Made by a program: the position numbers and the translations under genes
The notes under the pieces: generated by a model
The model's input: the letters and a program-made list of their open reading frames with translations, nothing else
Database searches by the model: none
Told to the model about the DNA's origin: nothing
Source of the DNA: Bolinopsis microptera
Taxonomy: Eukaryota > Ctenophora > Tentaculata > Lobata > Bolinopsidae
Assembly (NCBI RefSeq): GCF_026151205.1
Contig: NC_087077.1
Coordinates: 19,527,975-19,591,974, forward strand
Direction of reading: 5' to 3'
DNA length: 64,000 nucleotides
In this document: piece after piece, positions 5,061 through 63,426 of the stretch
How positions within the stretch are numbered: position 1 is the first letter of the stretch
Layout of the letters: every line of letters begins with the position of its first letter

Positions 5061-8000
5061 ATGACTGTAAATGGGAGTGTCACTGTCACCTCTCCGCAAG
5101 CAATCCTCACAGAGGACATCTTTCTCCACCACACCATCAACCCCTCCACCAAGCTCTTCCTAGCTCTCTACTACACGCTCATCCTCATCATGTGTTGGAC
5201 TGGCAACAGTTTCACCCTCTACGCTACTGTTAAACACAATGCTATTAAGCTGGACAAGTTGTCTGTGTGGATCATACAGAACCTCTGCGTGGCTGATATC
5301 CTTCATGGTTAGTACCTTATATAGGCATCACGTGTAGTGCACACTCCTTATATAGGCATCACGTGTTGTCTGTGTGGATCATACAGAACCTCTGCGTGGC
5401 TGATATCCTTCATGGTATGTTTTTAGTACAAATTGTTCACGATTGTCTGTGATAATTGTAGTCGCCATTTTCGTCAAGAATTGCGAAAAAGGCGGGAAAT
5501 TTACTAAATTGTTCCCAATCTTATTATTTATTATTATGTCCGCAATCGAACATGCCAATATTGTTTTAATATACCTTTAAGTTCTACACTACCAAGATAA
5601 GATAATCTATGAGGATATCAGTAGTCAATGACTAGACAGGGTTATTGAAACTTACAAAGAATAAAATGGCGTCTGGACTTGGGACCAGCTCATAGTACAT
5701 TTCATTAATGCCTTCTGAAAACCATTCTGCTAGCTCAAATTATTGTTTATTATTATTAAAACTAAATATGCATATGTAACAAACCTCTCCCCAGGCTGGA
5801 TCCACGTACTCCCCGTAGTAATAGCCCTCTTCTTCAAATACGACCTGGAGCCCATCTGTAAACCGCTCCTCACAATAAAGTACGTCTTTATAGACGCTAA
5901 CTCCTTCTTGATTAACGCACTAGTGTTCAACAAGTTGTACCGGTGCAGGTAAACGAACGACTTATTATACATACCACATTTAAATCGTAATCATTTATTT
6001 TATTGAGCAATATACCACGCTACAATCAATATTATTCGTAACTAATTATATCCGAGGGATCACATTTGAATCGTAATCGATAGTTTGATCCAGTAATTTA
6101 CTACGTTACAATTAGATATGCTAGTCGTAACTAATTTCATCCAAGATACCATACATACCATTCAATTACTTTAAACTGACATATAGGTAAAGTCCTCGTC
6201 ACTTGTTTGGTATAATATAGGTAAAGTTCTCGTCACTTGTTTGGTATAATATAGGTAAAGTTCTCGTCACTTCATTAAACCAGTAGCGGTCGCCGTTCCG
6301 CAAGTGCTGTGGGTAATTTACCTATATTATATCTACTCAGGTTCCCCTTCCGGCCAGCTTCTACTGCTAATACCAGGGTCGGGTTAGTGTACACTCCTTA
6401 TATAGGCATCACGTGTAGTGTACACTCCTTATATAGGCATCACGTGTAGTGTACACTCCTTATATAGGCATCACGTGTAGTGTACACTCCTTATATAGGC
6501 ATCACGTGTAGTGTACACTCCTTATATAGGCATCACGTGTAGTGTACACTCCTTATATAGGCATCACGTGTAGTGTACACTCCTTATATAGGCATCACGT
6601 GTAGTGTACACTCCTTATATAGGCATCACGTGTAGTGTACACTCCTTATATAGGCATCACGTTTACCTATATTATATCTACTCAGGTTCCCCTTCCGGCC
6701 AGCTTCTACTGCTAATACTCGGGTCGGGTTGACGGTGTGTGCGGGACTGAGTGGCTGCTTGTACGCTGTCATCACTATCATCAAAGTTATTCATACCAGA
6801 CATGCTAGGTAAGCTTTCGTTTCTTTTTTAAATTCTTTCCTTTATTGAATTTTTCTTAAATTTTGTTTTCCTTGTACCATGTGTTATACTTTTCTTTTTA
6901 CCACTCATCCGTTAATGTTCTTTAATATTGTGGTAATTTATTGCATCTGGTAAAGAACACAGTTCTTTTTATGCATAATATTGCAATTCTAATTTCATAG
7001 CAATTTTATATAATTTATTGCACAATCACGACAGTTTATTAGATTAATGTTCTCCCCGAAGTAATTTGATTCTAGATTTTTAAGGCATTTTAGATCTTCG
7101 TTTGTTTAGTACTTATTAAACTAACCAACTTAATTTCATTGTAGCTAATAATAGAATGATGTAATCTTACGAAGCATACACTACATTTGCGTGTTTCACT
7201 GTCTAACCATAATCTCCCCGCAGGTTTCAAGAGAACTTCTTTGGTTGTGAGGCGGACGACCCAATGCCAGCCCGGTACAACAAGCTGGATCTGGTGATGA
7301 CGTGCATTGTTCTGGTTATACCCGTTACTACTCTTGTTATTGCTAATACTGCCCTTCTTATTATAGCACTGGGCAAAGGTGGGTTTCTTTCCGTTCATAG
7401 ATGTAGTGAAAATTATTTTTGACACATTTAATTAATATATTATGTATATACATATTATTAGGCTTTGGTTGACAAATTCAAAATTAAACTGAATCAATCA
7501 AAAATACGCGAAATTAAAGGCAATAAACTATCCTAACATTAAAAATGTTTTGAAACTTCAGTATGAGAGGGCCAATTATTTAAATGAAGCATTCAAACTA
7601 ATGTCCCAAATATTTGTATGATGATGATCTAGACAACCTTTTTGTTGTCTAGACAACAAAGTATCATTTCCAAACAAATGATCTGTCTGATCAAATGATC
7701 CTTTAGTTCGATGGCCAATTTTCCGAGAAAAATAAATTGAACAACTTTTCAATCGATCAAACAATGATATGAGTATTGCTGAAAGCACAGTGTAAGGCCT
7801 ACATTTAATGAGCGACGAAGATGAACAAATCGATCTTTAAAATACACTGCGATGAAATTTCATTGCGTTTAAATCGCATCGTTTTGACCGATTTGAAAAG
7901 TTCTAGTTCTGATTTAGGAGAACATATTTTGGAACAACGTAAAACAATTTGAACAATTAGAATCATGAGAGCATTAATTGTTCGACTGAAGAACAGTGTA

Positions 8001-8742
8001 AAATGCTGTAATTCATGTAATTAGTGTATTAATTATGTAATTAGTACTGTAATTATACGTTCAGTTAACCACAACCATCCCAGGTATGAACCTACCAGAA
8101 ACCCGAGAGCGAACCTCCAGCTTAACCGACCGCCGCAAATCAATCCTAAACGCCCAGATAAACAAACGCAGCTTTATCATTATTGGAGCTACCACCATAT
8201 TCTACACAGTAGCCCAACTCCCTTATCTCTACTTCTGTTTCGAGATGTACGGGATCACTAATACTCTGAGTGGACTGACCCTGGTCAGATTCACACGGTT
8301 CTCCTTTGTAATAATGCAGAGCTCCTGTTTTGTAAACCCTATAATATACTTCACGACTAACAGAGGGTTCAGAAGGTTCATGATAGAGTGCGTGTACAGG
8401 TGCATCGGTAAACACAGTGAGATTGAACGTAGAAGTTCAATAGCGGCTCTCTCCCGGAAAGAAACTAGAATGATGAACTCGGTATCTGAGAAATCAACTC
8501 GTTTCAGTACGGTAGCTCCGCGGTTGGAGAGTAAAACAAGCAGTGTTATTTTTAACGTCAGAGCGTATTACGGATGCTACAATGTTAATGTGCCCAAATG
8601 TAAGGGAATTAGTCTTTCAGCAAGAGGCTGCTGTCTCTCAGAACATAAACTAAATGGGAATGATGTAGATGGTATTAAAGATGATATGAATGGAAACAAT
8701 GGTAATCTTCTTGAAACAGAGATGAAAGAAGAGTTTACGTAG
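5061..8742 (+). CDS. Class A (rhodopsin-like) GPCR 1, five exons
   Basis: Seven-transmembrane receptor, presumably in the plasma membrane; ligand unknown. The exons I infer are 5061-5307, 5795-5948, 6686-6808, 7224-7378 and 8084-8742. All junctions are GT-AG and in phase, giving about 445 aa. Exon 1 holds TM1 with the GN motif (CWTGNSF) and the start of TM2 (NLCVADIL, with the conserved Asp). Exon 2 carries TM2-TM3, exon 3 TM4, exon 4 TM5 after an acidic loop with a Cys. Exon 5 carries TM6, TM7 with NPIIYF (NPxxY class), helix 8 and a long Ser/Arg-rich cytoplasmic tail. The usual D/E-R-Y at the end of TM3 is replaced by FNKLYRCR. The CWxP of TM6 is also absent (AQLPY instead). Exon-edge duplications sit in introns 1 and 2. 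The start is the first ATG in frame with TM1. The family is clear; the ligand class cannot be inferred. Confidence 0.88.
5260..5414 (+). repeat. Duplicated 3' end and donor of GPCR 1 exon 1
   Basis: The last ~45 bp of exon 1, ending CTTCATG|GT, recur just downstream and end at 5414. Two short units of the CTTATATAGGCATCACGTG satellite lie between the copies. Copy 1 has donor GTTAGT at 5308 and copy 2 has donor GTATGT at 5415. The second donor is closer to consensus. Splicing from the second donor would read through intervening satellite sequence, so the first is the more likely coding junction. Confidence 0.85.
6186..6290 (+). repeat. About 33-bp tandem repeat, 3 copies, in GPCR 1 intron 2
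   Basis: Three copies of a unit containing ATAGGTAAAGTTCTCGTCAC lie upstream of the duplicated exon 3 edge. Each unit contains AGGTAAAG, a good match to a splice donor. No coding potential. Confidence 0.75.
6322..6720 (+). repeat. Duplicated acceptor and 5' end of GPCR 1 exon 3, flanking a 31-bp satellite (about 9 copies)
   Basis: The segment TTTACCTATATTATATCTAC plus the CTCAG acceptor and about 45 bp of exon 3 occurs twice, at about 6317-6387 and 6662-6720. A 31-bp satellite of about 9 units (TGTACACTCCTTATATAGGC core) fills 6387-6662. The same satellite occurs as two units at the exon 1 edge 1 kb upstream. The downstream copy continues into the intact exon (TM4). The upstream copy runs into satellite and then a stop, so it is a decoy. 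Confidence 0.88.
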
Positions 8743-8971
8743 ATTCAAGTTTCAAACTCGGCCTATTTTTTGTCTTTTTTAATTGTTTAGTAATTTAATC
8801 TTTTGTTTTTTATAGTTCAATTTAGCCGTTGAAACATTTTGTATTCATGACTACCAATATTCAATCGCTACCATTACCAAATGGGGTCAACTGGTAATTT
8901 TGATCGATCCTATTTTGCTAAATACAGCAATTGAAATGTTTTTAAAACGGATAAAAGTGTATTGACATTTT

Positions 8972-9023
<52 letters not shown>

Positions 9024-9039
9024 AAGTGGAATAACTTAC
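8743..9039. other. Gap between GPCR 1 and the last visible nardilysin exon, with a 6-bp microsatellite
   Basis: The two genes converge here. The only structure I see is a GTGAAA repeat at about 8976-9028, directly beside the donor of the nardilysin exon at 9040. No further nardilysin exon is recognisable. Confidence 0.6.
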
Positions 9040-17455
<8,416 letters not shown>

Positions 17456-20090: not shown

Positions 20091-20093
20091 ACA

Positions 20094-24972: not shown

Positions 24973-24984
24973 TAATTAAGACTC

Positions 24985-28632: not shown

Positions 28633-31831
<3,199 letters not shown>

Positions 31832-34522: not shown

Positions 34523-34530
34523 TACCTATT

Positions 34531-38999: not shown

Positions 39000-41900
39000 T
39001 TATTGGAATACAATTCTAAACAGTTCATTGTCAAATTCTCCTGACGACAATACCTCCCGTAGCAGTGAAGTTGGAGCTCCAGCTTTAGTCAAACAATCTG
39101 CAAGCTGTTTCTTTGTTGAAATCCAACGAACTGTCATTTCACTATTGTTCACTCGCTGTCTCAGGCAAGCTATTGGTATCCTCAATCCCTTGTCATCAAT
39201 ATTTTTCGAGGTTTGGATAGCATCATGTAGAGACTTGCAATCAGTCATTACAATGACATCAAGTTTTCCAGATAACATGATCTCACTCAGCTGAGCTTGG
39301 ATCAACTCACATGTTTCCACTGCTTCGATCATTGCCCAACTCTCCGCTGCTAAAGTACTTTTACATACTCTCCGGATTTTTCTACTCTGCCATGTAATGG
39401 GGCAAGATTTTCCTGTAAGCGAAACAAGGAAAATTATGAAGCCTCCCTGAGAGCTACCATCCTTCAAGTTTCCATACGATGCATCACAGAAAACCACTAA
39501 GACTGACTCAGGCAACAGTAGTTTCTTAAACCTGAGTGTTAGAGGATTCTTTTCTAAGAACTTAACTGTTTTGTTTACCATTTTCAAATCTGCGATGGTC
39601 CCTTCAGTCACAGAATTACTAGCAAAACATGTAGCATAAGCTACATCTGGCCGTGTCTGTGTTGATACCCACAACAACTGTCCGCACACAGTTCTCAGTT
39701 GTTGCTTTTCTTTCTCGTTGATTGGGAGCGTATTTCGATTCACTCGGGTGGGGTCGATCTCTATTCTTGAAATCTGGTCTGCATACCCCAGTTGTGATAC
39801 CAGAATTCCAGATTGTGTTTGCTTTACATCAAGACCAGTATAAGCAAATTCAACTTCGACCTCCGTACTTAGACGAAACTTCTTCTTCAGTTCCCCAATA
39901 ACTTCCCTTTCAAACTTCTTGCTTCCACTGAACATCAGATCGTCAACATGCACAGCAATGATACCCTCGAGTTTTCCTTCATCATACCAGAACATGAATG
40001 ACTCATCATATGACGATACCACAACATTTAACTTCACTAGAGTATCACGAAGCTCAACATACCACATTCTAGGTCCGTCTACTAACCCGTAAATACATTT
40101 GTTCAGTTTCCAGATTTTCCTCGTTTCAGCTTCCTTAGGAGGAATAATGAAGACATCTCTTGAAATCTTCTTGCCTTGCAAGAAGGCAGCCTGAACATCG
40201 ATGTGTTGTAACTTCCAACTTTCTGTTGCAACTATTGTAAGGAGCAGTCTTATAGAGTCCCTGTTACATGTTGGGGAGTCCTTTCGTATGTTGCTACTAT
40301 TTTCTTGATAACCAAGTGCCACTAAACGAGCTTTAACAGAACCTTCTGCTTTCTTTGTAATTACCCAACGAACACCAACATTGGACTGTTCGTTTGCATC
40401 AACTTCCACGTAAACCTTGTTTACTTTGAACTTCTCAAGCTCTGCTAGCTTGGCATCTACAACTGCTTGGTCATACATACTCACACTGGACAGCAACACC
40501 TCTTCTTCTGTTTCTGGTGACAGGTCATCTCTCCAATTCACAGCAAGCTCATACCAATCCACACATTGGATGCTCTCCTCACCATCAAGTTGAATATTTA
40601 CACAGTTTTTGTAACTGCCAGTTGATTTTCCCGCACGGCTATGGATATAAGCTTTATGCCAGATCTCACCATCCTCCTCTGGATACTTTGGAAGAAACTC
40701 CACGTGACTTCTTGCTTTAGGAAGTCCTGATTTGTGCTGAGGTCTGATTGTTGCTGTTGTCTCACTTTGAGGCAGTGTTTCTGTTTCCGGTACAGAAACT
40801 GCTGTTTCCATAGAGCAAGATGGTTGATCCTCTAGGAAATTTCTCTGCGTCTCTAATGGGGATTTTGGTGAACTTGATACAATACTCGGGTTAGGTTGCC
40901 CAACAACTGACTCTGAGGTAATGGGATATCCTGTTGTTGTATCCCTGGTTAGATGACATGCACTGCACTTATAATACTGATTTCCATGCTTTAAAATATA
41001 TAAATGAGTAATGTCTCTCCCCAGTATAACACCTGGCCCACTCCATTTTGCAGATCCTTTTCTCTTGTACATCACCTTTTCACCGTTGCTATAATACTCA
41101 TCATTGCTTGTCCGAACTTGGCTTTGCAGAGCTCTACGTATCTTGTTGCTACTTTCACACTTTGCAAATGCTTGCCTTGCACTGTGCATTGCATTAACAT
41201 TATCAGCCACGGTTTTACTCACCGTTGTTTCTTCTAAAGCTGGCAGTCTATCATCGATGACATTCGGAAGTGAAGGGTTACGGCCCATTGTCAACTGATT
41301 TGCAGAAAACCCACCAAACATCTGCATGGAGTTTTTCGCACTTAGTGCCCAACACAATGCAACTTCCCAGTTGCATTTTGAATCTTCCTTCGTTTTTACC
41401 ATCATCTCTGTCAGCATCTTATGATGACGTTCTACAATCCCATTGCTCCAAGGGCTCTCGGCAGCTGAATTTTGCACATCCACATTGAATCTTTGACACA
41501 TCTCAGTAAACTCCTCATTGGCGAACTCTCCACCATTATCAGCCATGAATTTCTTTGGATTTCCAAAGATGGATATCCATCCAGAGCAAATTCCTTGGAT
41601 GATTGTCTCTTTCTTCTTATTGTAGATTATTCTAGCTGCTGAATATCTTGTCACCGAATCAATCATATGCAAGATATACACATTAGGAGTGCCAGGAACA
41701 TTCTTAAGGTCCATTGCAACACATTCGTTGAACACCTTTCCTCTTGGGAGACCCACCACTGGTCTTGACTTGGGTTTCTTGTACATCAGACATATTTTAC
41801 AACTGCTGGATACCTCATCAATTGCTTTCATGTATTCTGGTCTCTTAAATCCTGCAGTTTTCAGCAATGTTTTCAGTTTATCACTAGGAGGGTGTGAGAA

Positions 41901-43364
41901 TTGTTTGTGGATTTTTTCCACTTTCCTCCTAATCTCCTTTTCGTCAGTACCAAACAAACCTTCTTCGCTGATTGTCATCACCAGATGTGGGGTCTTTCGA
42001 TCTGGCGGCCCAATGGTCATGCGTCTTTTATTACAAAGAGGAACGCAATAGTGCTTTGATTTAGTTTCAAACAAATCAACACAATCTCCACTGAATCTCA
42101 TTGTATCATTTGTGAAATCCAACACAGCACCAGCTCTCTTTAACGATGCTTTACTGAGAAGCAACGGCAGTTCTTTCTCAACAATGTTTGCTTCTATCCG
42201 AACATCTGTCTTTCCTATTCGCCCAGGGATGATAGTCTTTTCTGTGGAAATGACTTCGAGTCCATCCCCAAATCTAAAAGGCGTCGAGCAAGGTTCACTA
42301 ACCATCATTTTCAGCTGTTTTTCTTCCAGAGTTTCTCTGTAGTGATTCACCCAGTTCCTACCAACAACTGTCTTTGTACATCCGGAATCAATAACTGCAC
42401 ATGCTAATGACTCATATACAAGAGAACCAAGGTTCGTATCACTCATCAGGCACTCTTCAGGAATCTCAACAACATCTTCAGATTCAGACACCACCATGAA
42501 TGTTAAGAATGCACCCTCTGCTTCCATGGCCGTAACATTCTCAGCACCATCTTGTGCGAAATACTGTGCATTATCTGTTGAACTTGAAGAAGCTCTGTTC
42601 TTGCTTGTGCACCATCTTGCAATATGGTTTTTATCGCCACAAGCATAGCATCCAGTATACGCACTCTTTTGTCGATTATACGGATGATGATGATTCCCAC
42701 GTCCTCTTGACATCCTTCTGTAGTTTCCTCGTCCACCTCTTGGGGTTGAGTTGTATGTATAGTTACATTCCTCATGTTCCACCTTCACTGATATTGACGC
42801 AGGCGGTGTGGAAAGGTTCGATTGGACGGAGAAGATTTTCCCGATCGTTTCACACATATCTTTATAAGTAAGATCCTTTACAGTTGCCAAAGCGAGATCA
42901 TATTTTTCTGACGGAAGGTTAGCGCTGTTAAGGAATCTGTAGGCCAGGACTGCTTCAGGAAGAGTGATTTTGTGTCTCCTGAGATCCGCTAGCAACTTCT
43001 CAAACTCAGATATGTAACTCTGTAGAGACAACCCTTCTGGTCTCACATATTTTTCAAACTTACCGTAAACTCGGTAACAGGTTTGAGCTGAGTCCTCTAA
43101 ATAGATTTTGTCAAGATGACTTAAAATCTTCGCTATTGCATCCTCTGCAATTAGGACATCTTTCCCCAATGATCGTACTGTATCCTTTATCTTCCCTTGT
43201 TTCAATTCTAAGAGCAACGCAGTTCCTTGTCTCTTTTTCTCTAAACCTGTGAACTCTTGCCACAGCTGCAGGTCTAACTTCCAATTGCAGTAGTCCTGAT
43301 CCTCACTGTATGCCGGTGGGGCTTTGTAATTACTAGTTACTCTAACTGTCTCTGGGGGTGCCAT
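39000..43364 (-). CDS. Copia gag-pol polyprotein, about 1454 aa
   Basis: One uninterrupted frame encodes all copia functions. The first ATG is at 43364; the frame is open upstream into the primer site from a GTG. Gag comes first and carries a CCHC knuckle CYACGDKNHIARWC. Protease has the DSG active site (AVIDSGCTKTVVG). Integrase has the HHCC finger (HKQFSHPP, then CKICLMYKKP) and the DDE core (AMDLKNVPG, MADNGGEFANEEF). Reverse transcriptase has DVQAAFLQGKK and the active site AVHVDDLMFSG. RNase H has VVFCDASYGN and STLAAESWAMIEA. The integrase-before-RT order is diagnostic of Ty1/copia. It resembles the copia types of aquatic invertebrates (GalEa-like), but placing it needs a tree. Confidence 0.94.
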   Translation of the reverse strand: MAPPETVRVTSNYKAPPAYSEDQDYCNWKLDLQLWQEFTGLEKKRQGTALLLELKQGKIKDTVRSLGKDVLIAEDAIAKILSHLDKIYLEDSAQTCYRVYGKFEKYVRPEGLSLQSYISEFEKLLADLRRHKITLPEAVLAYRFLNSANLPSEKYDLALATVKDLTYKDMCETIGKIFSVQSNLSTPPASISVKVEHEECNYTYNSTPRGGRGNYRRMSRGRGNHHHPYNRQKSAYTGCYACGDKNHIARWCTSKNRASSSSTDNAQYFAQDGAENVTAMEAEGAFLTFMVVSESEDVVEIPEECLMSDTNLGSLVYESLACAVIDSGCTKTVVGRNWVNHYRETLEEKQLKMMVSEPCSTPFRFGDGLEVISTEKTIIPGRIGKTDVRIEANIVEKELPLLLSKASLKRAGAVLDFTNDTMRFSGDCVDLFETKSKHYCVPLCNKRRMTIGPPDRKTPHLVMTISEEGLFGTDEKEIRRKVEKIHKQFSHPPSDKLKTLLKTAGFKRPEYMKAIDEVSSSCKICLMYKKPKSRPVVGLPRGKVFNECVAMDLKNVPGTPNVYILHMIDSVTRYSAARIIYNKKKETIIQGICSGWISIFGNPKKFMADNGGEFANEEFTEMCQRFNVDVQNSAAESPWSNGIVERHHKMLTEMMVKTKEDSKCNWEVALCWALSAKNSMQMFGGFSANQLTMGRNPSLPNVIDDRLPALEETTVSKTVADNVNAMHSARQAFAKCESSNKIRRALQSQVRTSNDEYYSNGEKVMYKRKGSAKWSGPGVILGRDITHLYILKHGNQYYKCSACHLTRDTTTGYPITSESVVGQPNPSIVSSSPKSPLETQRNFLEDQPSCSMETAVSVPETETLPQSETTATIRPQHKSGLPKARSHVEFLPKYPEEDGEIWHKAYIHSRAGKSTGSYKNCVNIQLDGEESIQCVDWYELAVNWRDDLSPETEEEVLLSSVSMYDQAVVDAKLAELEKFKVNKVYVEVDANEQSNVGVRWVITKKAEGSVKARLVALGYQENSSNIRKDSPTCNRDSIRLLLTIVATESWKLQHIDVQAAFLQGKKISRDVFIIPPKEAETRKIWKLNKCIYGLVDGPRMWYVELRDTLVKLNVVVSSYDESFMFWYDEGKLEGIIAVHVDDLMFSGSKKFEREVIGELKKKFRLSTEVEVEFAYTGLDVKQTQSGILVSQLGYADQISRIEIDPTRVNRNTLPINEKEKQQLRTVCGQLLWVSTQTRPDVAYATCFASNSVTEGTIADLKMVNKTVKFLEKNPLTLRFKKLLLPESVLVVFCDASYGNLKDGSSQGGFIIFLVSLTGKSCPITWQSRKIRRVCKSTLAAESWAMIEAVETCELIQAQLSEIMLSGKLDVIVMTDCKSLHDAIQTSKNIDDKGLRIPIACLRQRVNNSEMTVRWISTKKQLADCLTKAGAPTSLLREVLSSGEFDNELFRIVFQ

Positions 43365-43373
43365 TGCGTCCTT

Positions 43374-43384
43374 CTCTGCTACCA
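43374..43384 (-). promoter_or_regulatory. Copia primer-binding site (initiator-Met tRNA)
   Basis: TGGTAGCAGAG on the minus strand, 2 nt downstream of the 5' LTR. It complements the terminal CTCTGCTACCA of animal initiator-Met tRNA over 11 nt. Confidence 0.85.
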
Positions 43385-43386
43385 CT

Positions 43387-43551
43387 TGTTAACTTTAAAT
43401 GGATCACTATGCAATGAAACACACCAGTTGTTACAAGTAATTATCAAACCCCACAGACAACATGTTTGTGGTACATTCTGAAATAGAACACAATTAGTAT
43501 ATATTATATCGACTATCATAAATATATAAACCAAATATATAGCAATTCACA
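43387..43551 (-). repeat. Copia 5' LTR
   Basis: 165 bp, identical by eye to the 3' LTR. It is followed outward by CACG, which also flanks the other end. Confidence 0.95.
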
Positions 43552-49723: not shown

Positions 49724-50049
49724 TTGCGTGAAACGTATTAGTTTGTTATTTGATGGTCGAGCAAAATGGTTTATAAAACATTCTGTTTAATAACATGGTT
49801 TTCTAGAAAAAATTAGCATGACGCAAATCACAAGGTGTTAAACATGCAATTTTTGGGTCATACAAAAAGTTTTATGATATTCGCATATTGGTTTCATTTC
49901 TTATAAAAACCATCTCAGTGCTTATCGTATTAAGTTTTTAATTTTGATATTCGGTCAGTTATATTTGTTGTAAAATCTAATATAAATACAGTTATAAAAA
50001 TTTAAAATAGAGAAAATGTGCTAAAAAACTAAAACATAGGTACCTCAGA

Positions 50050-53000: not shown

Positions 53001-56000
53001 AATACTTATCGGCACCAATAACCATTACAACTACCTGAACCATATACCAGACACATATTAGATATTCAGTCTCTAATTAATTACTAATTAGTCTCTAATT
53101 AATTACTAATTAGTATCTAATTAATTGCTAATTAGTTTCTGTTCCAGGTGGACTACTAAGTAATCGAGAGTTACCATTTTGGATCGGAGGGAGTTATGAA
53201 CGTACCTCATTCCTTGCTAATCTAACAGGTATGTTTATCTTCTTATCTTATAACTTTGCTGACGATCTTGCACTGACAACAGACACCGCAGAGCAAGCGC
53301 AAGATCTTCTCCTCAGTGTGGAGCTGGCTGCTAACTCCGTTGGACTTCACCTCAACGAGAGTAAGACGAAGTACATCAGAGTCAATCTCTCTGAGTCTGA
53401 CTCTACCGTCATTAAAGCAGCAAGTGGGCAGGAGATAGAGCAAGTAGATGACTTTGTCTACCTTGGAAGCAGAATAATGAGTGTGGAGAAGGACTTTAAT
53501 GTTAAGAAAGCAAAGGCATGGGGGGCCTGTCATCAGTTAAAGACAACCTGGAAGTCTGGAATGTGCAGGGACTTAAAGATCCGTGTCTTTCGAGCAACGG
53601 TTGAGCCCGTACTCCTGTACGGCTCTGAAGCTTGGACGATAAGCCAATCCATGACTAAGCGGATCAATGGATGCTACACTAGAATGCTCCGGATGGCCTT
53701 GAACATACGTTGGCCACAAATCATCAACAACATTGATTTATACGGCAACATCCCCAAGCCATCAGCGATGATAGCCTCCAGAAGAATGAGACTGGCTGGA
53801 CATGTAGCCAGGCATGACGACCTTCTGGCAAACCAACTTCTGTTCTGGGACCCTCAGCATGGATACAGGAGACCGGGGAGGCCCCACCTTACGTTTCTGG
53901 ACATGCTAAAGAAGGACACCAGCCTTTCCTGTGTTGAAGAGATAAGATCTGTTATGCTGGACCGCGACGTGTGGCGAGGAATTGTAGTTGCTCGGACCAA
54001 GAAGCCGACTTAAGTCAAGTCAGTCAAGTCTTATCATATAACAAGGTGTATTCATGAATATTCCATGCATATTCCATGAATATTCCATGAATATGCCATG
54101 AATATTAAAGGTATATTCCATGAATAATTTAATATGCCATGAATATTCCATGAATATGCCATGAATATTAAAGGTATATTCCGAGTATTCCTATAAGATG
54201 TACTGGTCAGAGATCGTACTCTGTATTCTGTACGTTGGCCAGATTGCCCTAAACAAAAATCAATTTTTAGATTTTAAGAAATTTATTTTTTACTCAATGT
54301 GTGCTTTTTTCTGAAATTTAAGTTATTTTCTGTTTTGTTGCACCTTTAAAACCCCACCAAATCACTTTTTGACCCATTTTTAACCCCACTCCCCCCTCAG
54401 CCCTCCGTAATCAATTTTACACATAGCTATTGTGTCAAAATTACACTAGCGTAATCATTTAGAAACCCCTCCCCCCTCGGCTGATTACGTAATATGTGAA
54501 CGGCCCCTAATTATTACAATGTTGCAACCCTATAAATTACAACATGTGCCGTAATCATTTAGAAATCCCTCCCCCTTCGGCTGATTACGTAATATGTGAA
54601 CGGCCCCTAATTATTACAATGTTGCAACCCTATAAATTACAACATGTGCCGTAATCATTTAGAAATCCCTCCCCCTTCGGCTGATTACGTAATATGTGAA
54701 CGGCCCCTAATTATTACAATGTTGCAACCCTATAAATTACAACATGTGCCGTAATCATTTAGAAATCCCTCCCCCTTCGGCTGATTACGTAATATGTGAA
54801 CGGCCCCTAATTATTACAATGTTGCAACCCTATAAATTACAACATGTGCCGTAATCATTTAGAAATCCCTCCCCCTTCGGCTGATTACGTAATATGTGAA
54901 CGGCCCCTAAGTATTACAATGTTGCAACCCTATTACAACCATATTACAGACAATCCTATTATAAAATTACAGACTACTGTATTATAAAGTACTAGTGTAA
55001 CCCGGCCTTCGGCCGGGATTTCACTGCCGCAGTTAAAAAGGGTAGGATAATTTACCCGTTGAGTCAAAACCCGCATTAGGTGAGCAATTCTATTCGGAGT
55101 GCCCTCACGTATCCAATGGTATCTTAAACAATAGTAATAGTATCTTAAACAATAATCAATAGAAATTAACCCTTAACACCACACCCGCCTATCATATTTG
55201 TGAACACGCATAACATTGTCGTATGAAAGTATGAACTCTCTCTCTGCAGTCCAAACAGTGCCCCCTCCCCTAATAAGATTATAGTATAGACAGCGAATCT
55301 TACACGGGTAACTCAGTTACACTAATTATGCAGCTACATATGCGAGCCCCGTAACTCTTATACTGTTGTGCTCAAGCCATTTTATGTAACATTTGTGGTA
55401 CAAAATCATCAATTAAACCACTTACCAACGACCGATTTAAAAAACCTTTATCATTTAACTTCGTCAGAGTTTTGTCGGCACTTTACCGAAAAAATCAGTC
55501 CCGCAACTCTTACCGTTTTCTTGATTAAGCCGCTCGGAAATTACAAACAGACAGACAGACAGACAGACAGAAAACACACATTCTGGGATTATTAGTTAGA
55601 TAACAGTAACTTAAATACCACGTGTTGACCAGACATTGAAATTACCGGTCTCGCTGAATTGAATCATAACCATCTCCATTTCTGAACAATCAAAAGATTA
55701 TCCACCCACTACCCCCCTCAGCCACTACCTTTCTCCCAGAGCAAACCGCCCTTTATGAGCCTTAATCTCATGAACTCTCTTTATATGGGCATCATGAAAC
55801 TTAACCCCCTACCCCCCTCAGGCTGGGTATCCTCAGCAATGAAACTTAACCCCCTACCCCCCTCAGGCTGGGTATCCTCAGCAATGAACGGAGCCTCTCT
55901 CTACTTGATCTGCGTGCTGAGTATAGACAGGTTCTACGCAGTGTTCTACCCCCTCCACCGGCCCTGCATCCTCACCAACACCCGCCTCACCGTCCTGTGT

Positions 56001-57457
56001 GCCACCTCCTGGCTCATCCCTGTTGTTAGCAACACCTACCCCTTCTTCAGGTAAATCCCTGTTGTTAGCAACACCTACCCCTTCTTCAGGTAAATACCTG
56101 TTGTTAGCAACACCTACCCCTTCTTCAGGTAAATACCTGTTGTTAGCAACACCTACCCCTTCTTCAGGTAAATACCTGTTGTTAGCAACACCTACCCCTT
56201 CTTCAGGTAAATACCTGTTGTTAGCAACACCTACCCCTTCTTCAGGTAAATACCTGTTGTTAGCAACACCTACCCCTTCTTCAGGTAAATACCTGTTGTT
56301 AGCAACACCTACCCCTTCTTCAGGTAAATCCCTGTTGTTAGCAACACCTACCCCTTCTTCAGGTAAATCCCTGTTGTTAGCAACACCTACCCCTTCTTCA
56401 GGTAAATACCTGTTGTTAGCAACACCTACCCCTTCTTCAGGTAAATCCCTGTTGTTAGCAACACCTACCCCTTCTTCAGGTAAATACCTGTTGTTAGCAA
56501 CACCTACCCCTTCTTCAGGTAAATCCCTGTTGTTAGCAACACCTACCCCTTCTTCAGGTAAATCCCTGTTGTTAGCAACACCTACCCCTTCTTCAGGTAA
56601 ATCCCTGTTGTTAGCAACACCTACCCCTTCTTCAGGTAAATTCCGGATTGGAATGTTATTTTTGAGTCGCATAGTTGAAATGTTTTCCTGATAAGATCCT
56701 TTTCCTTGTCGCATCAAACGGGATCAATAGCAATTTACCCAAGACAACCATCTTCAGGGGAGCCCACTTCTTCTACTACGATATCCTGGGTTTCTACGTG
56801 TCCACCCCCCTCGTCACCTCCGGTCACGAGCAGAACGTTATCTACATTGTAAGTAACGTGTCAGTACTTCTCCCCTTTTGTGTCACAGTTGGGTTCTGTC
56901 TAGCAGTAGTCAGCAGACTGGCTCAGTACGCTGGACGTCCTAAACCTGGCATTAACCTGGAGCTACACCAACCTGTCAGCGTGCTCGCTCCCAAGTCAAA
57001 GAAACTCTCCGTTAGATCCCATAGATCTTCCCGCAGACTAGGGCGGATCCTGACCAGGATGAAGAGGATCCCAACAAGTCAGAAGGTTCGGGTGTCAGCA
57101 GGGACGAGGAGGATTGCAGCTAAACGGAGGGCTGGGAGGAATACGGACAAGAACAATATTGTGACGGTGATTATTACTCTTTACATCCTCTGCTTGCTAC
57201 CTGGCATTCTAATGAATGTCTATGAACTCCTCAATACTTTCAATGCTCTGCCACAAAGTGCTTCTGTAACTAACATGTCGGACCAAATGTTGAGTACGTA
57301 TATCTATATTTCACTGTTATTTTCAACTCTACTGTTCACCCTTAATTCATGTGTTAACCCATTTATTTATTATTTTAGATGTAACCCTATATTTGCGCTA
57401 CCAAAACCCATCGCTAGGGCTCTTTACATTTGGAAAGTTAAGTTTCAATGTAAGTGA
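50050..57457 (+). CDS. Class A (rhodopsin-like) GPCR 2, five exons
   Basis: Seven-transmembrane receptor. Exons: 50050-50129, 52542-52678, 53148-53228, 55867-56050 and 56758-57457. All junctions are GT-AG and in phase, giving about 393 aa. Exon 1 begins ATG and enters TM1. Exon 2 completes TM1 (FLSNGLMGVHLIAL, conserved Asn) and TM2 (ISAADFLTCLTVAP, conserved Asp). Exon 3 is the first extracellular loop. Exon 4 has TM3 ending CVLSIDRFYAVFYPLHRP (DRF for DRY) and TM4. Exon 5 has TM5, a basic third loop, TM6 (LCLLPGI) and TM7 with NSCVNPFIYYF (NPxxY class). Introns 1 and 3 hold LINE insertions and both edges of exon 4 are tandemly duplicated. Ligand unknown; the pattern fits peptide-type receptors, but that is weak. 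Confidence 0.9.
50440..52480 (-). pseudogene. CR1-like LINE, 5'-truncated, in GPCR 2 intron 1
   Basis: The long frame 52317-50524 carries connector and reverse transcriptase: NYRPVSNLAVMSKLIEKIV, VVLLDLSAAFDTIDH, GVPQGSLLGPILFILYI and LYADDSQLYIA (YADD active site), then a complete C-terminal region ending at 50524. A second frame (52471-52238) continues the protein upstream, implying one frameshift near 52270-52315. The endonuclease is absent. An A-rich tail (plus-strand T-complement, about 50460-50490) marks the 3' end. It is antisense to the host GPCR. The RT domain itself is uninterrupted, so the copy is fairly young. Confidence 0.88.
53240..54015 (+). pseudogene. RTE-like LINE, C-terminal RT fragment, in GPCR 2 intron 3
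   Basis: Begins at the catalytic box (NFADDLALTTDT) and runs to the ORF end: VDDFVYLGSRIMS, VEPVLLYGSEAWTIS, RMRLAGHVARHDD and YRRPGRPHLTFLDML. These C-terminal blocks are typical of RTE-type non-LTR elements. It is truncated at the 5' end within the RT, lies in the same orientation as the GPCR, and starts only about 12 bp after the exon 3 donor. No 5' domains remain. Confidence 0.85.
54016..54190. repeat. Short repeats of CATGAATATTC type (LINE tail region)
   Basis: Irregular units of ATTCCATGAATATGCCATG follow the RTE-like ORF. They probably belong to its 3' tail. Confidence 0.7.
54441..54945. repeat. 100-bp tandem repeat, about 5 copies
   Basis: CCGTAATCATTTAGAAATCC recurs every 100 bp (AACATGTGCC at 54541, 54641, 54741, 54841). 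Each unit contains the short palindrome ATTACGTAAT and CCCTCCCCCTTCGG. It lies in GPCR 2 intron 3 and has no coding frame. Confidence 0.95.
54985..55606 (+). mobile_element. SINE-like or LINE-tail element with a CAGA tail
   Basis: Starts near ACTAGTGTAACCCGGCCTTCGGCCGGG (a stable GC hairpin) and ends with an ACAG tetranucleotide run at about 55547-55570, then AAAACACACATTCTGGGATTAT. A hairpin head and simple-repeat tail suggest a short non-LTR-derived element. No ORF of known type. Confidence 0.55.
55777..55883 (+). repeat. In-frame 45-bp duplication of GPCR 2 exon 4 acceptor and 5' end
   Basis: AACTTAACCCCCTACCCCCC plus TCAG|GCTGGGTATCCTCAGCAATG occurs twice, with acceptors before 55822 and 55867. 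The offset is exactly 45 bp and there is no stop between them. Use of the upstream acceptor would therefore add 15 residues (GWVSSAMKLNPLPPS) in frame at the extracellular end of TM3. Confidence 0.9.
56018..56640 (+). repeat. 39-bp tandem repeat of GPCR 2 exon 4 end and donor, 16 copies
   Basis: Each unit reads CCTGTTGTTAGCAACACCTA then CCCCTTCTTCAG|GTAAAT. The first unit is coding (PVVSNTYPFFR), and every unit keeps the AG|GTAAAT donor preceded by a pyrimidine tract ending CAG. In the receptor frame a stop (TAA) falls in the donor of the first unit. The other plus-strand frame is open (SLLLATPTPSSGK repeated), because 39 is a multiple of 3, but there is no reason to think it is a gene. Confidence 0.95.
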
Positions 57458-59343
57458 TCATCTCGGTGAGATTTTGGTCCTAAATATCGCTGTGAATTTA
57501 TTATAGTCTTTATGTTAAGAGTTTAAATTCCCAAATAGTCAGACTGAGCAGGTTGAGCTGTAGTAAAACACAGTACTGAGGTGTTAAAACATTTTCATTA
57601 CTATCTTCAGTAACATCCTGAATCAGAAACTCGGTTAATATCAGTTCCTACAAAGTGTAACATTGGAAATGAAATGACACAACTAAAAACGATATGAATA
57701 TTTAAAAAAAAAAACATAACTCTTGTGCCCCAATGCAATAGAAAACATTTAAGATAAATCCAATAATGGAATCCCAAACGGGTCCACGGCATTGAGCCCC
57801 AATAGTCTTTATGTTATGTATCCTGGGTTTGGATAGGATGTTACCCGCTTAAAATATTTCCATCGCGTTACATAATACTTAATAAATGTAATAGATTTGC
57901 AGTGTTGTAATTAGTTTATTATTCCAATATTAATTATTTATCTTTAACTTAAAAGTAACTGAATCGGTGGTATTGTGGTGATGAGGAATTGGTTTTGTGT
58001 TTTGTATTGTTGCTATTTATTTGTGATCTTATTTTCAAATTATGTATGTTGCTGAGGATTTATTTGTTTATTTTATAACAATCTGTTTGCAGTCACATCT
58101 TTTCCTAATTTACACTTTACAGTACTGCGAAACACTGAAATATCATGGTCTGCTAAACCACAAATTATTCAAATAACCGTAGATTCATAAGTCATGCTCA
58201 AACCAATACTCATTACAACGGTATTATGCATGCTCATAATCGGATCATAATTGAAATATAGTCCTGGGCCATGATCGAAAAGTTATTATGTCATGGTTTG
58301 AAGAGAACTTACTGTTCACACGCACTTTCACTTGGCTATCAAAGGTGCATCAAGAGACAGTTGATGTACGGTATAATAAGTGCTATAGGGCAGAAATATC
58401 AGTCCATTAAAATATTATATTATCGTGAAATCACTTTGAATGAAACAGCCCGGAATGGTTTGGTATTTAAAGTAGTCCCGAATTATTTTCTCTAGAATAA
58501 CTTCAAAGTCAAATGAACCGGTAGTTCTTAATGGACCATAAAGGTGCTTTATTAGCATTGGCAGTCTGAGAGCCCCGTTTTAAGGGGACGACACCATTTA
58601 ACTTTTAGCATTTTATATAGACTTGAAAATAAAACATGTTTTAATTAAAGTTGGTGCACCCTCTAACTACTGACTATGCTGACGTACACAATTACAAAGG
58701 TAAATGGTGCAATCTCTCCAAGCTGTATTATATACTGGCTGGTTTGAGAGGAGCAAGCCGAGAATGGTAAAGCTCAAACGTAGTGGAGCATGTCTGTTAG
58801 ATAGCTTGTGTCTGGTCTCTGGTATAAATTACAATCTATTAGGGAAGATCAAACAGCGCTGATTGTACTCTGAGAATAAAGATATATTATGTTAATCTTG
58901 CCTTCTTTGCTCTTCGTAGAAACCTACTTAATAAATATCAGAACCAGCTTGTGAAACAGAGGTTTCACAGCTTGGCCGACATCACAGGTGAACACCGTCT
59001 CCGGCTACATATTTTATGTCAGCAAGTTCAGGACCGTTCTTAGAATTGTGAAACTCGACCCCTTCGTAGGTTAAGTTGTAGTATAATGACAATATTTGAA
59101 CCATCCCTCAGTAACCACTTCCAGGCTGCTTCATTTCACCTCTTAACTTTCAGGGAAGTGGACCTAATAATTACAATTATACGCGAGTACCACGATCTAT
59201 ACTACCAAGGTAGCATAACTAACTAATAATAATATAAACTATTAACTACTAATATTCCGTCCCAGTTAGTGACACTAGGTGCTAGTCTTGAGAAATGATA
59301 ATATTCAACATGCCAGATGTAGTTTTAGTAGAGGTTACCCTAC
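57458..59343. other. Gene-free interval downstream of GPCR 2
   Basis: AT-rich. No exon that I can connect in phase to the gene on the minus strand at 59344-62384, although its 3' exons may lie here. No arrays. Confidence 0.4.
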
Positions 59344-62300
59344 CCTTAGTGATAAGGGACACCTGACCAGTGAACCTGATATCAACCCACTGTTCGGTTA
59401 TCCCTGCTTGCTCTGGTGGTCTCTCTAATGTGGAGTACGTGTGCAGGAAAGTGGTGTAGCGTTGTAGAGATGTGGTCTGAAATAATGGGCTGTAGTTTAC
59501 GGTTCCTGAGTTGATATCTTCTGTGTTTCATAACCCTTATATCAAACCAAACTCCAAACAGTTACCCCTATTTGAGTATTTGATACGAAAAAAGAGTGAC
59601 ATGACTAACGATGAAATATTTCGTGTGAAGACAGATCAACCTTAAAATGTAATATCCTAATATTAACCTGTTTAGCTGCTGCCTCAATCACATCTCCAAC
59701 CTTGCGAGCCGCACCTGTTATCACGTCAATATATATTTTTGCCGGATTATCTGGTTCTGTTTCTAGATCCACTGTCCACATAGATGTCACTGTCACTCTA
59801 AAAAGTATTTTTCAATTACGGGTAAACCGCCCCTAAAACGTCACCTGTTTTTTGGGCCCAGATTGCCGAGTTAGGGCTAAATTTACAGGGTTCTGAAGTG
59901 TCTAGGAATAATATTTAAACCTTTTTCTAGCCTGCCAGGAAGATTTGGAGATTTGAAAATAAAATCAGGTACAATTTTTTTGACGTTGAAATGGAGTCAC
60001 TTTTAAAACACCACCCCTAAAATGTCAACTCTATATGTGTGATAATTACAAAATCTACAGGAGGCCTGATTTATCTTTTGTCACTAGTACTATTTGTTTT
60101 GTCTTATTAAAACATTAAGCTACTTGAAAACATTCACTCACTAAAGGAAGTACCTCAAAACCGTAATCACCCCCTAAAATGTAACGTGCACCACCTCTAA
60201 AACGTCAGCTAAAACAGGTTGTGTAGCACTCAGAATGTTGCTCAATTATTAATTTTAATCACTTCTGGGACAAATATAACCTATTTCTGAGAGGTGTCGA
60301 CCAGAATTTCTCTCTCTGTTGAAAAAAAATGGTGGAATTTAGTCAATTTACTTTTTGTGACATTTTGGGGACTTTTTGTTGAATACCCAGAACTTACGGC
60401 AAAACAGTAACTCAGTCAACAAAATTTACACCTGTAGTTAGATTATCTAGTTATAAACTAACAATTGGCACAAAAGAAATGGATTCAATGTGATTTTAAC
60501 CTAGTGCAAATTGCATGTCAAAAACTACGGTTTTTGGTACTTACTAGTTTATGGTAAACCTATGATATGCCCCCTAAAATGTCATTTTTTTCTCCCCTAA
60601 AATGTCAAATTTGTATTTTGTTCGCATGGTGTGCGATAATAGCTCTTGTTTTGGCACTTGTTAATTATTAACATCAACTATTAACGAAATGTGAGTATGC
60701 ATTGCATCTTAGGAAAAGCCTGAGTAATTTGATCAGGTTAAAATGACATTTTAGGGGGGATAATTAGACATTTTAGGGGATGTTTATTGCGATTAATAAA
60801 ATAAAACTAATTCCTTGAGCTGCCAAAGCTTTCCAATATTACCATTAGATGCTAAATATGATGTTTAATAGGCTGGTACCTCCATTTTATGGTGCTTGTA
60901 GTCTCAAAGCCAGAATTTGATAAAATGACATTTTAGGGGGCGGCCAGGTGACATTTTAGGGGAGGGTAGTAATATTGAGTAATGTATAACTTTCCATATC
61001 TCCAGTCATATGTACAAAGTTGCTAAAATATGTAAATAAAATAAATAAAATGTAAATAAATAAAATATTATAATAATACAATAAAAATACTTAATACTTA
61101 ATATTTAATAATTTGCTCAACCCGTGTACTTACGTAAGAGGGCTTGTAGATGACTGATGTTTTGTGTTCTGATAAGAGTCCACAATACTTGCTGACTCCG
61201 CAAACTTTATCCCTGTTATTCTGTAGCGAACAGAGCGTTCCTTGAATAATATGAGAAATAAGGGACAGTAAGCTAAAACCCTACCGTCCAACTTGAGAGT
61301 ACAAAATTAGTCATGTTATAGCCACATTATTTGTATGTCACGAGATATCGTCAACTGTATAAACTGAACCTGTATAAACTAACAGTTGAACCTGTATAAA
61401 CTCACAGTGTTGGGCTCCACAATATTAACTTGTAGTGTGTCCAGTAAAGGAGGTTTCCCCTCAGGTTGGTGGTAGATAGAAGAGGTGTAAGTAAAGGAGC
61501 TGAGAGGGATACCAGATCCAGCTGCCTTCCAGATCGTGCTCTCTAATCTCTTATCAGTCCTGTGTTACTCAGGTCACTCAGTAAAACAGATTACAGTTAA
61601 CTCTAATCTCTTATCAGTCCTGTGTTACAGGTCACTCGTTATCAGTAAAACAGGTTACAGTGTGTTAACTCTAATCTCTTATCAGTCCTGTGTTACAGGT
61701 CACTCGTTATCAGTAAAACAGATTACAGTGTGTTAACTCTAATCTCTTATCAGTCCTGTGTTACAGGTCACTCGTTATCAGTAAAACAGATTACAGTGTG
61801 TTAACTCTAATCTTTTATCAGTCCTGTGTTACAGGTCACTCGTTATCAGTAAAACAGATTACAGTGTGTTAACTCTAATCTCTTATCAGTCCTGTGTTAC
61901 AGGTCACTCGTTATCAGTAAAACAGATTACAGTTAACTCTAACGTGACTATGTCATATGTAAAGTGTGTTAACTCTAATCTCTTATCAGTCCTGTGTTAC
62001 GCAGGTCACTCAGTAAATTACAGTGTGTTAACTCTAGTGTAACTATAATGTAAGAAATGCATAAGATAGACAGATACAGAGACTTGGTTCTTGAATGAGT
62101 AACTTCCATAAGTAACTTTAGTAACTTTAGTAACTTTAGTAACTTTAGTAACTTTAGTAACTTTAGTGACTTTAGTAACTTTAGTAACTTTAGTAACTTT
62201 AGTGACTTTAGTAACTTTAGTAACTTTAGTGACTTTAGTAACTTTAGTAACTTTAGTGACTTTAGTAACTTTAGTAACTTCTGATCGTACCTTGCGAAGG

Positions 62301-62384
62301 TCCAGGATCCCTGGAGTGTATATCTCTTGTGAACACAGACGGTCTGGTTTACAGGAACAGTATCGTGGTTAGTCGCGTAAACTC
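59344..62384 (-). CDS. Unidentified gene, five in-phase internal exons (partial)
   Basis: Exons inferred from open frame plus GT-AG sites with matching phase: 62384-62291, 61559-61406, 61240-61134, 59797-59668 and 59476-59344. The joined protein of about 205 aa includes VNQTVCVHKRYTLQGSWTFA, TSSIYHQPEGKPPLLDTL, RYRITGIKFAESASIVDSYQ, SMWTVDLETEPDNPAKIYID and ITEQWVDIRFTGQVSLITK. There are few charged clusters, one N-glycosylation sequon (NQT) and a beta-rich look, suggesting a lumenal or extracellular domain. I do not recognise the family. Both the start and the end are missing. The first-listed exon's upstream partner should lie in or beyond the 26-bp array. The acceptor of 61559-61406 is tandemly duplicated. 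Junction phases agree across all four introns, the main reason to believe it. Confidence 0.68.
59819..61035. mobile_element. TIR element with 14-bp motif array, copy 2, inverted and truncated
   Basis: Begins CGGGTAAACC after TA and is the reverse complement of 34522 down to about 33165 of copy 1. It includes the same series of CCCCTAAAATGTCA / TGACATTTTAGGGG motifs. It ends at a TAAA-rich stretch where the last ~300 bp and the second TIR are missing. It occupies nearly the whole intron between the exons at 61240-61134 and 59797-59668. Confidence 0.88.
61541..62035 (-). repeat. About 67-bp tandem repeat of exon acceptor and 5' end (about 7 copies)
   Basis: Units contain CTCTAATCTCTTATCAGTCC then TGTGTTACAGGTCACTCG. 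In transcript sense each copy reads GTAACACAG|GACTGATAAG plus AGATTAGAG, that is, the acceptor and first ~20 bases of the exon at 61559-61406. The copy nearest the exon continues into coding sequence. Confidence 0.88.
62110..62281. repeat. 9-bp tandem repeat TAACTTTAG
   Basis: About 19 units of TAACTTTAG, with TGACTTTAG variants, directly beside the donor of the exon at 62384-62291. The open frame across it (TLV repeats) is not a gene. Confidence 0.95.
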
Positions 62385-63424: not shown

Positions 63425-63426
63425 TA

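Follow-up and report, generated by a model that had tools for sequence, protein, structure and literature searches.

The window, by which we mean the whole 64,000-nt stretch of Bolinopsis microptera DNA analysed here (GCF_026151205.1, NC_087077.1:19,527,975-19,591,974, forward strand; piece studied 5,061-62,384), holds the three genes tested, two 7tm_1 receptors (GPCR1 and GPCR2) and one M16 gene of the nardilysin/insulin-degrading enzyme kind, called nardilysin below. The joined GPCR1 protein matches 7tm_1 (PF00001) with E 1.1e-10 and GPCR2 does so with E 1.9e-19, and nardilysin carries Peptidase_M16 (E 2.1e-37) and Peptidase_M16_M (E 6.4e-39) domains and aligns to insulin-degrading enzyme (E 2.1e-26). 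Most exons were joined in frame, the E5/E6 join of nardilysin by reading alone. The exon positions of GPCR1 are those of an exon finder, with the ends of the first and last exon set by reading. The genes of the window served to train the finder, which made 86 predictions, compared to 9 in reversed sequence.

Table 1. Genes, duplications and repeat arrays in the window (window coordinates).
Feature	Position	Strand	Description
GPCR1	5061..8742	+	exons 5061-5307, 5795-5948, 6686-6808, 7224-7378, 8084-8742; open frames joined at GT/AG
GPCR1 exon 1 donor edge	5258..5416	+	52-bp duplication, 100% identical, copies start at 5258 and 5365
GPCR1 intron 2 array	6181..6272	+	34 bp x2.7, away from any edge
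GPCR1 exon 3 acceptor edge	6319..6730	+	67-bp duplication, 65 identical
M16 (nardilysin/IDE-like) gene, N-terminal part	9700..17455	-	E1 to start of E13
Nardilysin E12/E13 junction	9723..10402	-	32-bp unit x3 (about 29 bp of exon, CTTCAG|GT)
Nardilysin E7/E8 junction	12587..12833	-	32-bp exonic segment x3 containing CACCAG|GTTTAT; 10-bp satellite between
Nardilysin E7 acceptor edge	12881..12959	-	40-bp unit x2
Nardilysin E6 acceptor edge	13253..13479	-	56-bp unit x4.0, CTCCCAG|GTATTG
Nardilysin E5 donor edge	13690..13998	-	154-bp unit x2 with (AG)n, end ATCAA|GTTAGT; exon end by reading
Array near nardilysin E4 end	15138..15265	-	46 bp x2.8; candidate edge
Nardilysin E3 donor edge	16089..16522	-	90-bp unit x4.8, end CGAGAG|GTAAGG
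GPCR2 exon 4 acceptor, or coding if exon starts at 55740	55794..55888	+	45-bp unit x2.1
GPCR2 exon 4 donor edge	56019..56641	+	39-bp unit x16.0, CTTCTTCAG|GTAAAT
68-bp array	61541..62017	+	array real; Tandem Repeats Finder x5.9 at 61541-61933
Apparent second inverted-repeat element	62479..63428		

The local duplications in the three genes are real, and Tandem Repeats Finder places arrays at the positions named in a preliminary description of this DNA (Table 1). That description listed 11 exon boundaries at which an exon end with its splice site is copied into the intron, and reading of the DNA together with the in-frame joins of most exons upheld eight of them: GPCR1 exons 1 and 3, nardilysin exons 3, 5, 6, 7 and 11 (E12 in our numbering) and the donor of GPCR2 exon 4. 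At the acceptor of GPCR2 exon 4 the 45-bp array is present and the edge is doubtful, as the exon finder starts the exon at 55740, which makes the copies coding and in frame. The 46-bp array assigned to nardilysin exon 4 exists as well; it starts about 150 bp beyond the last base that is clearly coding, and the coding frame reaches a TAG ahead of it. For the last array, exon scoring found no exon at 61559 (edge score 8.7, coding part 1.3). The figure of no fewer than ten edges nevertheless stands, since 11 are counted when E7/E8 is added and both sides of E7/E8 and E12/E13 are included. The unit sequences and lengths are several, in agreement with the proposal of a process instead of one repeat family; a single family behind all the arrays was rejected, the units being unrelated except at the two GPCR1 sites.

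Three of the events, the two in GPCR1 and the one at E7/E8, are not simple tandem repeats; they are target duplications flanking an inserted satellite with units of 31 bp in GPCR1 and 10 bp at E7/E8. Between the duplicates of GPCR1 exon 1 lie two copies of a 22-bp core, and between those of exon 3 nine copies, in a 31-bp-unit array at 6394-6663. A variant of the core (at most 4 mismatches) also lies at 55777, immediately upstream of the 45-bp array in GPCR2. The copies of the 32-bp unit at E12/E13 are interrupted by an inverted-repeat element.

Two nardilysin introns, E7/E8 and E12/E13, are built like introns gained when an AG|GT segment is duplicated, judged from their sequence, as each junction motif is found in three copies. 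The joined frame aligns to insulin-degrading enzyme across E7/E8 with one gap of one residue just before the junction, and at E12/E13 the alignment ends at query residue 236, just short of the junction. Similar gains, in which the first copy of an AG|GT duplication serves as the donor and the last as the acceptor, are outlined for ATP2A1, for 24-bp repeats in fission yeast and for the potato RdRp gene (PMC4974935), and the presence of multiple copies resembles the fission yeast case. In contrast to the cases as outlined there, a 10-bp satellite separates the copies at E7/E8, and most other duplications in the window copy an existing exon edge and create no new intron.

To what extent exon edges are preferred was evaluated by permutation within the three genes. 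In a first run 7 of the 13 local duplications were at edges, a count matched or exceeded in 28 of 20,000 runs. After that result had been seen, the intervals of five units and the start of one exon were moved: by a base each for E12/E13 and GPCR1 exon 1, to the copy that adjoins the exon for E7/E8, by trimming or a shift for E6 and E3, and from 55822 to 55867 for the start of GPCR2 exon 4. An edge is then spanned by 10 of the 13, or by nine with a GPCR2 exon 4 that begins at 55740, where about 2.1 are expected, and neither count was reached in any of 50,000 random placements. The 14 exons that the exon finder gives in the window have a local copy at 4 of 28 junctions, compared to 32 of 112 flank positions; the finder gives fewer exon edges with duplications than reading by eye.

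Outside the window no such excess was seen. In 200 kb from elsewhere, fetched around matches to the 22-bp core and thus not a random sample, a local copy was found at 3/110 predicted splice junctions, 36/430 positions 60-300 bp outside exons and 2/162 exon interiors, so that junctions were poorer in copies than the outside positions (Fisher p 0.04). An edge score of at least 15 was reached by 11 of 66 duplication clusters and by 60 of 330 random unduplicated segments in the same sample; the remaining clusters, of 74 in total, were near stretch ends or longer than 1500 bp. A general edge enrichment of all duplications was therefore rejected, and the suggestion that minisatellites at splice junctions are a genome-wide property is not supported: because there is no junction excess in the 200 kb, the edge duplications of the window are a cluster and no demonstrated genome-wide rule.

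A cluster of this kind could be pure chance plus notice, in that a genome rich in minisatellites will offer a reader some window where arrays meet exon ends. The number of duplication clusters (28 in the 64-kb window, besides the 74 elsewhere) and the lack of edge excess in the sample are in line with this. So is the distribution of the core family, which is denser towards chromosome ends: of 46 dispersed loci on C1-C8, 20 are at most 2 Mb from an end when 18.8% are expected (the nominal p of 1e-4 is too small since some C6 loci copy each other), and the window itself lies 1.34 Mb from the end of C6. However, chance does not explain why other genes show this architecture together with this satellite, and together with the permutation result this makes it a rather doubtful explanation.

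The preliminary description had overlooked the dispersed satellite of which the GPCR1 repeats are a part. This satellite, present in both GPCR1 duplications, is built on the 22-bp core CTCCTTATATGGGCATCACGTG, which has 808 matches at no more than 2 mismatches, compared to 0 for the reversed control. Direct repeats flank 22 of 86 core sites and 1 of 845 controls with mispaired flanks; two of the sites with long flanking repeats are the window's own and the others are outside it, and 64 of the 86 are without a target duplication at score 6. Exactly adjacent direct repeats measure 6, 8, 8, 8, 9, 10 and 15 bp, and others, some with small gaps, reach 68-78 bp. Because the flanking repeats vary in length, break repair fits better than a transposase. 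A DNA transposon or MITE does not fit, as the core is without inverted ends by inspection and its flanking repeats, from 6 to more than 60 bp, have no fixed length.

The window arrays and the core arrays consist of head-to-tail units and, by the usual unit range of about 10-100 bp, can be called minisatellites. The core arrays have internal variants and locus-specific spacers, and their flanks are unrelated between loci; the intron status is known for few. The first spacers in 41 core arrays are of 25 different kinds, and a spacer matches the flank at 6 bp or more in 23 of the 41, compared to 39 of 1524 controls, a match that in a tandem array may equally be the array running past its last core and is no proof of target duplication. 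Due to this ambiguity the argument for target duplication rests on the 25 different first spacers and on the sites with a single core. A bacterial or viral origin of the core is not supported, an exact-match search in two collections having given 0 matches. The letters of the core occurred in no paper of the collection searched, and no such 22-bp seed was recognised in the literature as judged on titles and abstract openings.

A link between the core and exons is suggested by the longest duplications. Flanking duplications of at least 39 bp (39-86 bp) were found at 9 of 111 core sites, and none of that length within 130 bp at the other 102. All nine lie in stretches read as coding, and seven were read as exon edges. 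An automated splice-plus-coding score gave Fisher p 0.007 for the nine, and p = 0.05 once the two window cases were removed, no single outside case falling below 0.06. The flank edge score was higher at these sites than at the others (Mann-Whitney p 0.002) and was at least 14 at 7/9 of them versus 32/102. The automated support for the exon-edge reading of the seven sites is modest. By reading, the same edge architecture is supported in genes on other contigs (L019, L049, L066, L123 and L125). Two more candidates did not hold up as well: L109 was withdrawn as an exon donor, since its longer sequence looks like C-terminal coding DNA of the opposite strand, and L103 is weakened, its 30-bp array unit being open in the coding frame, so that an edge is not needed.

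These data bear on the idea that exon edges are true hot spots, where junctions or transcription (R-loops, AG|GT) attract breaks, duplications and satellite insertion. The edge counts in the window genes, the seven of nine long duplications with none at the 102 other sites, and both automated tests speak for it. Yet all duplications in 200 kb are without edge excess, the automated support fades when the window cases are left out, L109 and L103 are not clear edges, and high flank edge scores are found at many other core sites as well. We regard hot spots as possible, though on the unlikely side. Repair at AG|GT sites, one of the causes proposed earlier, is possible.

Based on the sequence, the explanation we favour, with a probability of roughly 0.55, is that break-repair duplications with captured DNA were amplified, and are tolerated where splicing hides them. 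Filling in and joining of breaks whose nicks are offset would duplicate stretches of about 30-90 bp, a staggered-break step that we infer from the end products, and captured filler DNA would sometimes come to lie between both copies. For GPCR1 this filler is a fragment of the dispersed satellite, with the core as its constant part. The direct repeats so made could then grow by unequal exchange or slippage. When a splice site is duplicated the exon would stay readable from one copy and the remainder would fall into the intron, which is why such duplications could be tolerated; when an internal AG|GT segment is duplicated, coding sequence would become intron, as E7/E8 and E12/E13 suggest. The satellite inserts between target duplications at GPCR1 exons 1 and 3 and at E7/E8 speak for break repair. 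If exon edges are tolerated and not targeted, junctions are expected to have fewer duplications than non-exonic DNA close by and about the number found in exon interiors, and the counts in the 200 kb (3/110, 36/430 and 2/162) agree. Tolerance explains the persistence of exon-edge arrays, but not by itself the excess in three genes, and the 9 or 10 of 13 edge duplications compared to 2.1 expected argue against tolerance alone. In addition, random placement would be expected to put the long core duplications mostly between genes, whereas all nine are in stretches read as coding. The 64 of 86 core sites that have no target duplication likewise speak against the favoured explanation.

It had also been suggested that selection retains the arrays as spare splice sites that buffer splicing. 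Splice-site sequence is indeed kept in the GPCR2 copies, but near-identical copies are explained by recent origin, and in six donor arrays all 24 of the later donors that were identified read through to a stop. We rejected this reading as highly improbable; the same stops support break repair with tolerance, as only the outer donor keeps the frame. Repeats made by the assembler are likewise very unlikely, given the internal variants and locus-specific spacers of the arrays, the inverted-repeat element between units at E12/E13 and apparently another downstream of the 68-bp array, and the presence of the satellite at many independent loci.

The birth of minisatellites and the gain of introns are long-standing questions, and to our knowledge few cases of either have been caught in the act. 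Here one genome holds many apparently young cases in which both copies, the filler and the target are visible, some of them at splice junctions. A comparison of individuals and of close relatives could therefore give direct measures of the rates, targets and intermediates involved. The edge copies and the spread of the core suggest the birth of repeats and introns from DNA repair. A bolder and rather tentative possibility is that break repair copies a 22-bp sequence lacking transposon ends into new sites, with duplication of the target, and that the sequence then founds a minisatellite in which the spacer is the local target; at exon edges it would bring a long edge duplication, the exon surviving and the intron borders being remodelled. 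If true, an extremely short mobile sequence, copied by its host, would both seed satellites and reshape introns.

Related systems are known in part. Filler DNA insertion with direct repeats at double-strand breaks is described as a source of introns (PMC3296678), and direct repeats near splice sites are given as 4-30 bp with a mean of 11.4 (PMC11782384). Both resemble our case in having an insert at intron borders between direct repeats of variable length; the flanking repeats here reach 39-86 bp, and, unlike in the filler DNA described, the filler is repeatedly the same core. Interstitial telomeric sequences at breaks (PMC2246262) likewise place one short, fixed sequence at numerous sites, in some cases with target duplication, which by the figures extracted from that report (6/130 rodent and 4/25 primate loci) is rarer than at core sites; by inspection the core is not TTAGGG-like, and the host's own telomere repeat may differ. 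In introners, as summarised in PMC9860276, insertion with target duplication can likewise supply splice sites. In contrast to them, near-identical introns forming a family were not observed here, the core is by inspection without inverted-repeat ends or splice sites of its own, and many core sites have no visible sign of an intron.

Two core loci share more than the core, which also speaks for break repair with captured DNA. An identical block of 57 bp around it is common to L033 (C2) and L047 (C4), a 25-bp non-core piece of the block matches only these two loci at up to 3 mismatches (reversed control 1), and in L033 the block lies between direct repeats of 15 bp.

The duplications in the window are real, and several look young. 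The preliminary description had exon edges copied into introns at 11 boundaries of three genes: GPCR1 (plus strand), a nardilysin/IDE-like M16 peptidase gene (minus strand) and GPCR2. The joined exons of GPCR1 and GPCR2 match 7tm_1 in Pfam (E 1.1e-10 and 1.9e-19), and those of the peptidase gene match Peptidase_M16 (E 2.1e-37) and Peptidase_M16_M (E 6.4e-39) and align with insulin-degrading enzyme (E 2.1e-26). The arrays are present at the positions claimed, eight of the 11 boundaries were borne out, and one further junction was added. Neither nardilysin exon 4 nor an exon at 61559 was confirmed, and the acceptor of GPCR2 exon 4 is uncertain because an exon finder places its start at 55740, which would make the 45-bp copies coding. 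On coordinates that were corrected after the result of a first permutation had been seen, 10 of 13 local duplications in the three genes span an exon edge (9 of 13 with the alternative GPCR2 exon), in a stretch picked because a reader noticed such duplications. About 2.1 would be expected from dropping the same units at random, positions wholly inside exons excluded, and none of 50,000 runs reached 10 or 9. The first permutation, with rougher coordinates, placed 7 of 13 at edges, a count reached in 28 of 20,000 runs. Beside GPCR2 exon 4, a variant of a dispersed 22-bp core adjoins the exon at window 55777, with a flanking 17-of-18 repeat ending CCCCCCTCAG.

It had also been proposed that seeding of minisatellites at exon edges is a property of the genome. 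Our comparison sample was twenty 10-kb stretches around core matches, and it is not random because it was fetched around the satellite. The sample held 74 local duplication clusters, and minisatellites are therefore dense in it as well. A simple exon finder, with the window genes as its training set, predicted 86 exons in the sample versus 9 in reversed sequence. After filters, a local copy was found at 3 of 110 junctions versus 36 of 430 positions 60-300 bp outside exons, and at 2 of 162 exon-interior positions. In a second test, on 66 of the 74 clusters, an edge score of at least 15 was reached by 11 of them versus 60 of 330 unduplicated segments chosen at random. The sample therefore shows no preference for exon edges, and it does not uphold the genome-wide proposal. 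Edges with a copy make up 11 of 35 in the window genes and 3 of 110 in the sample (Fisher p 9e-6), the former scored by reading and the latter by the finder, which in the window recovers only 14 exons with a copy at 4 of 28 junctions. Outside the window, predicted edges within arrays were seen at L036 (an acceptor edge with 35-bp units, and a donor edge) and L040 (an acceptor edge, 65-bp units). The suggestion that arrays buffer splicing found no sign in its favour: reading the exon through to each later donor found by motif in six donor arrays meets a stop in 24 of 24 cases, and the protein is preserved with the outer donor alone.

In both GPCR1 events a target duplication surrounds a 31-bp satellite. 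With two mismatches or fewer allowed, its core has 347 plus 461 matches in the assembly (264.65 Mb, 232 contigs; C1-C13 together 258.1 Mb), those in large arrays included, and none in a reversed control. Only 22 bp, CTCCTTATATGGGCATCACGTG, are common to most aligned sites, and the flanks are unrelated, a few copied pairs excepted. Within the core we take CCTTATATGG to be CArG-like and CACGTG to be an E-box. Direct repeats with a score of at least 6 surround it at 22 of 86 independent sites, none at that score being found at the other 64, versus 1 of 845 mispaired flanks. In tandem arrays the core is constant, but the spacers, mostly 8-12 bp long, differ from site to site (95 pattern hits; control 0). 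The first spacers are of 25 kinds among 41 arrays (e.g. CAGTAAAG, GGTGTGCGGCCA, GGGACACCTCA and GTCAT), a pattern that we read as independent insertions in which the core was then amplified along with target sequence. Since TAGTATACA and TCTCTACAT both recur as spacers, arrays have spread as well. The best evidence of copying into a break is an identical 57-bp block around the core at L033 (C2), where a 15-bp direct repeat flanks it, and L047 (C4); a 25-bp non-core piece of it matches only these two sites at up to 3 mismatches (control, 1 match). Dispersed core loci tend towards chromosome ends: 20 of 46 lie within 2 Mb of one, versus 18.8% expected. The count covers C1-C8 and only exact matches with A, C or G as the next base, after neighbours had been merged by hand; its nominal p of 1e-4 is too small because several of the C6 loci are mutual copies. 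Near L101, similarly spaced core matches run from 2432098 onward, with more up to 2460837.

Flanking duplications of at least 39 bp within 130 bp occur at 9 of 111 independent core sites, all nine being arrays (43 of the 111 sites are arrays). By reading, seven of the nine lie at exon edges (table), L103 lies within coding sequence with its array open in frame, and L109 is ambiguous. Pfam thus supports two of the seven edges over the cut-off and one by a near match. Automated checks support the exon link less strongly than the reading does. The Fisher p is 0.007 over all nine sites and 0.05 once the two window sites are set aside (L109, 0.77), and a Mann-Whitney comparison of flank edge scores gives p 0.002. 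If real, the link exceeds tolerance, because tolerance predicts intergenic long duplications too and the other 102 sites have none. At L028, about position 4977 (minus strand), a single core has a 21-bp flanking repeat that starts TTACAG, with an open frame after it; this may be one more acceptor edge.

Features of the window and of core sites outside it (L-numbers)
Feature	Location	Detail
Window	C6:19527975-19591974	
52-bp satellite, TTTCAG in most units	window 1-4037 and L100	window's left end
Inverted-repeat element, 590 bp	window 9752-10341	between two E12/E13 units; 41-nt arms, 93% complementary
Frame of 1462 codons without stop	window 39003-43388	minus strand
Inverted-repeat element	window 62479-63428	30-nt arms, 97%; edge of 26-bp x22 array
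Satellite of about 76 bp, one core per unit	L101, C4:2432700-2433020	
Long duplication at exon edge	GPCR1 exons 1 and 3	Pfam match over cut-off
Acceptor edge	L019	by reading; exon peptide without Pfam match
Donor edge after ...SDPDKSIG	L049	by reading; exon peptide without Pfam match
Donor edge in P-loop ATPase exon	L066	PF00004 E 8e-4, 20.3 bits, just under cut-off 21.2
Donor edge after ...VHFSSLTTE	L123	by reading
Donor edge after ...FSRQKNRNPVQ	L125	by reading; exon peptide without Pfam match

Two junctions of the peptidase gene have the structure predicted by intron gain through duplication of an AG|GT segment, as outlined in PMC4974935. At E7/E8 there are three copies of a 32-bp coding segment with CACCAG|GTTTAT, with 10-bp satellite pieces between them; the donor comes from the first copy and the acceptor from the last, and across the junction the joined protein keeps its alignment to insulin-degrading enzyme. 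The E12/E13 junction has three copies of a unit with CTTCAG|GT, two of which are separated by the 590-bp element, inserted at TA and with TA at either side by reading. Judged from sequence, both introns were probably gained in this way.

Repair may duplicate short stretches, with captured DNA between the copies, the duplicated stretches would then be amplified, and edge duplications would be tolerated through splicing. These steps would account for most of the picture, the exceptions being the excess in the three window genes and the link between long duplications and exons.

In peptidase exon 4 (window 15413-15265, minus strand) the frame meets a stop, beyond which lie copies, degenerate at first and then near-exact, of what resembles the next coding segment; the gene may not be intact. 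Its second half was not seen in window 8742-9724, before GPCR1 is reached; GPCR1 may be nested in the peptidase gene, or the latter may be truncated. Transposon-rich DNA lies at about 20 to 54 kb, where we take the 1462-codon frame to be Copia-like; several more window frames are presumably LINE-like. The 52-bp satellite also occupies all 1975 bp preceding the window. The inverted-repeat element at the edge of the 26-bp array seems to have landed between its units, and the array continues to the window end.
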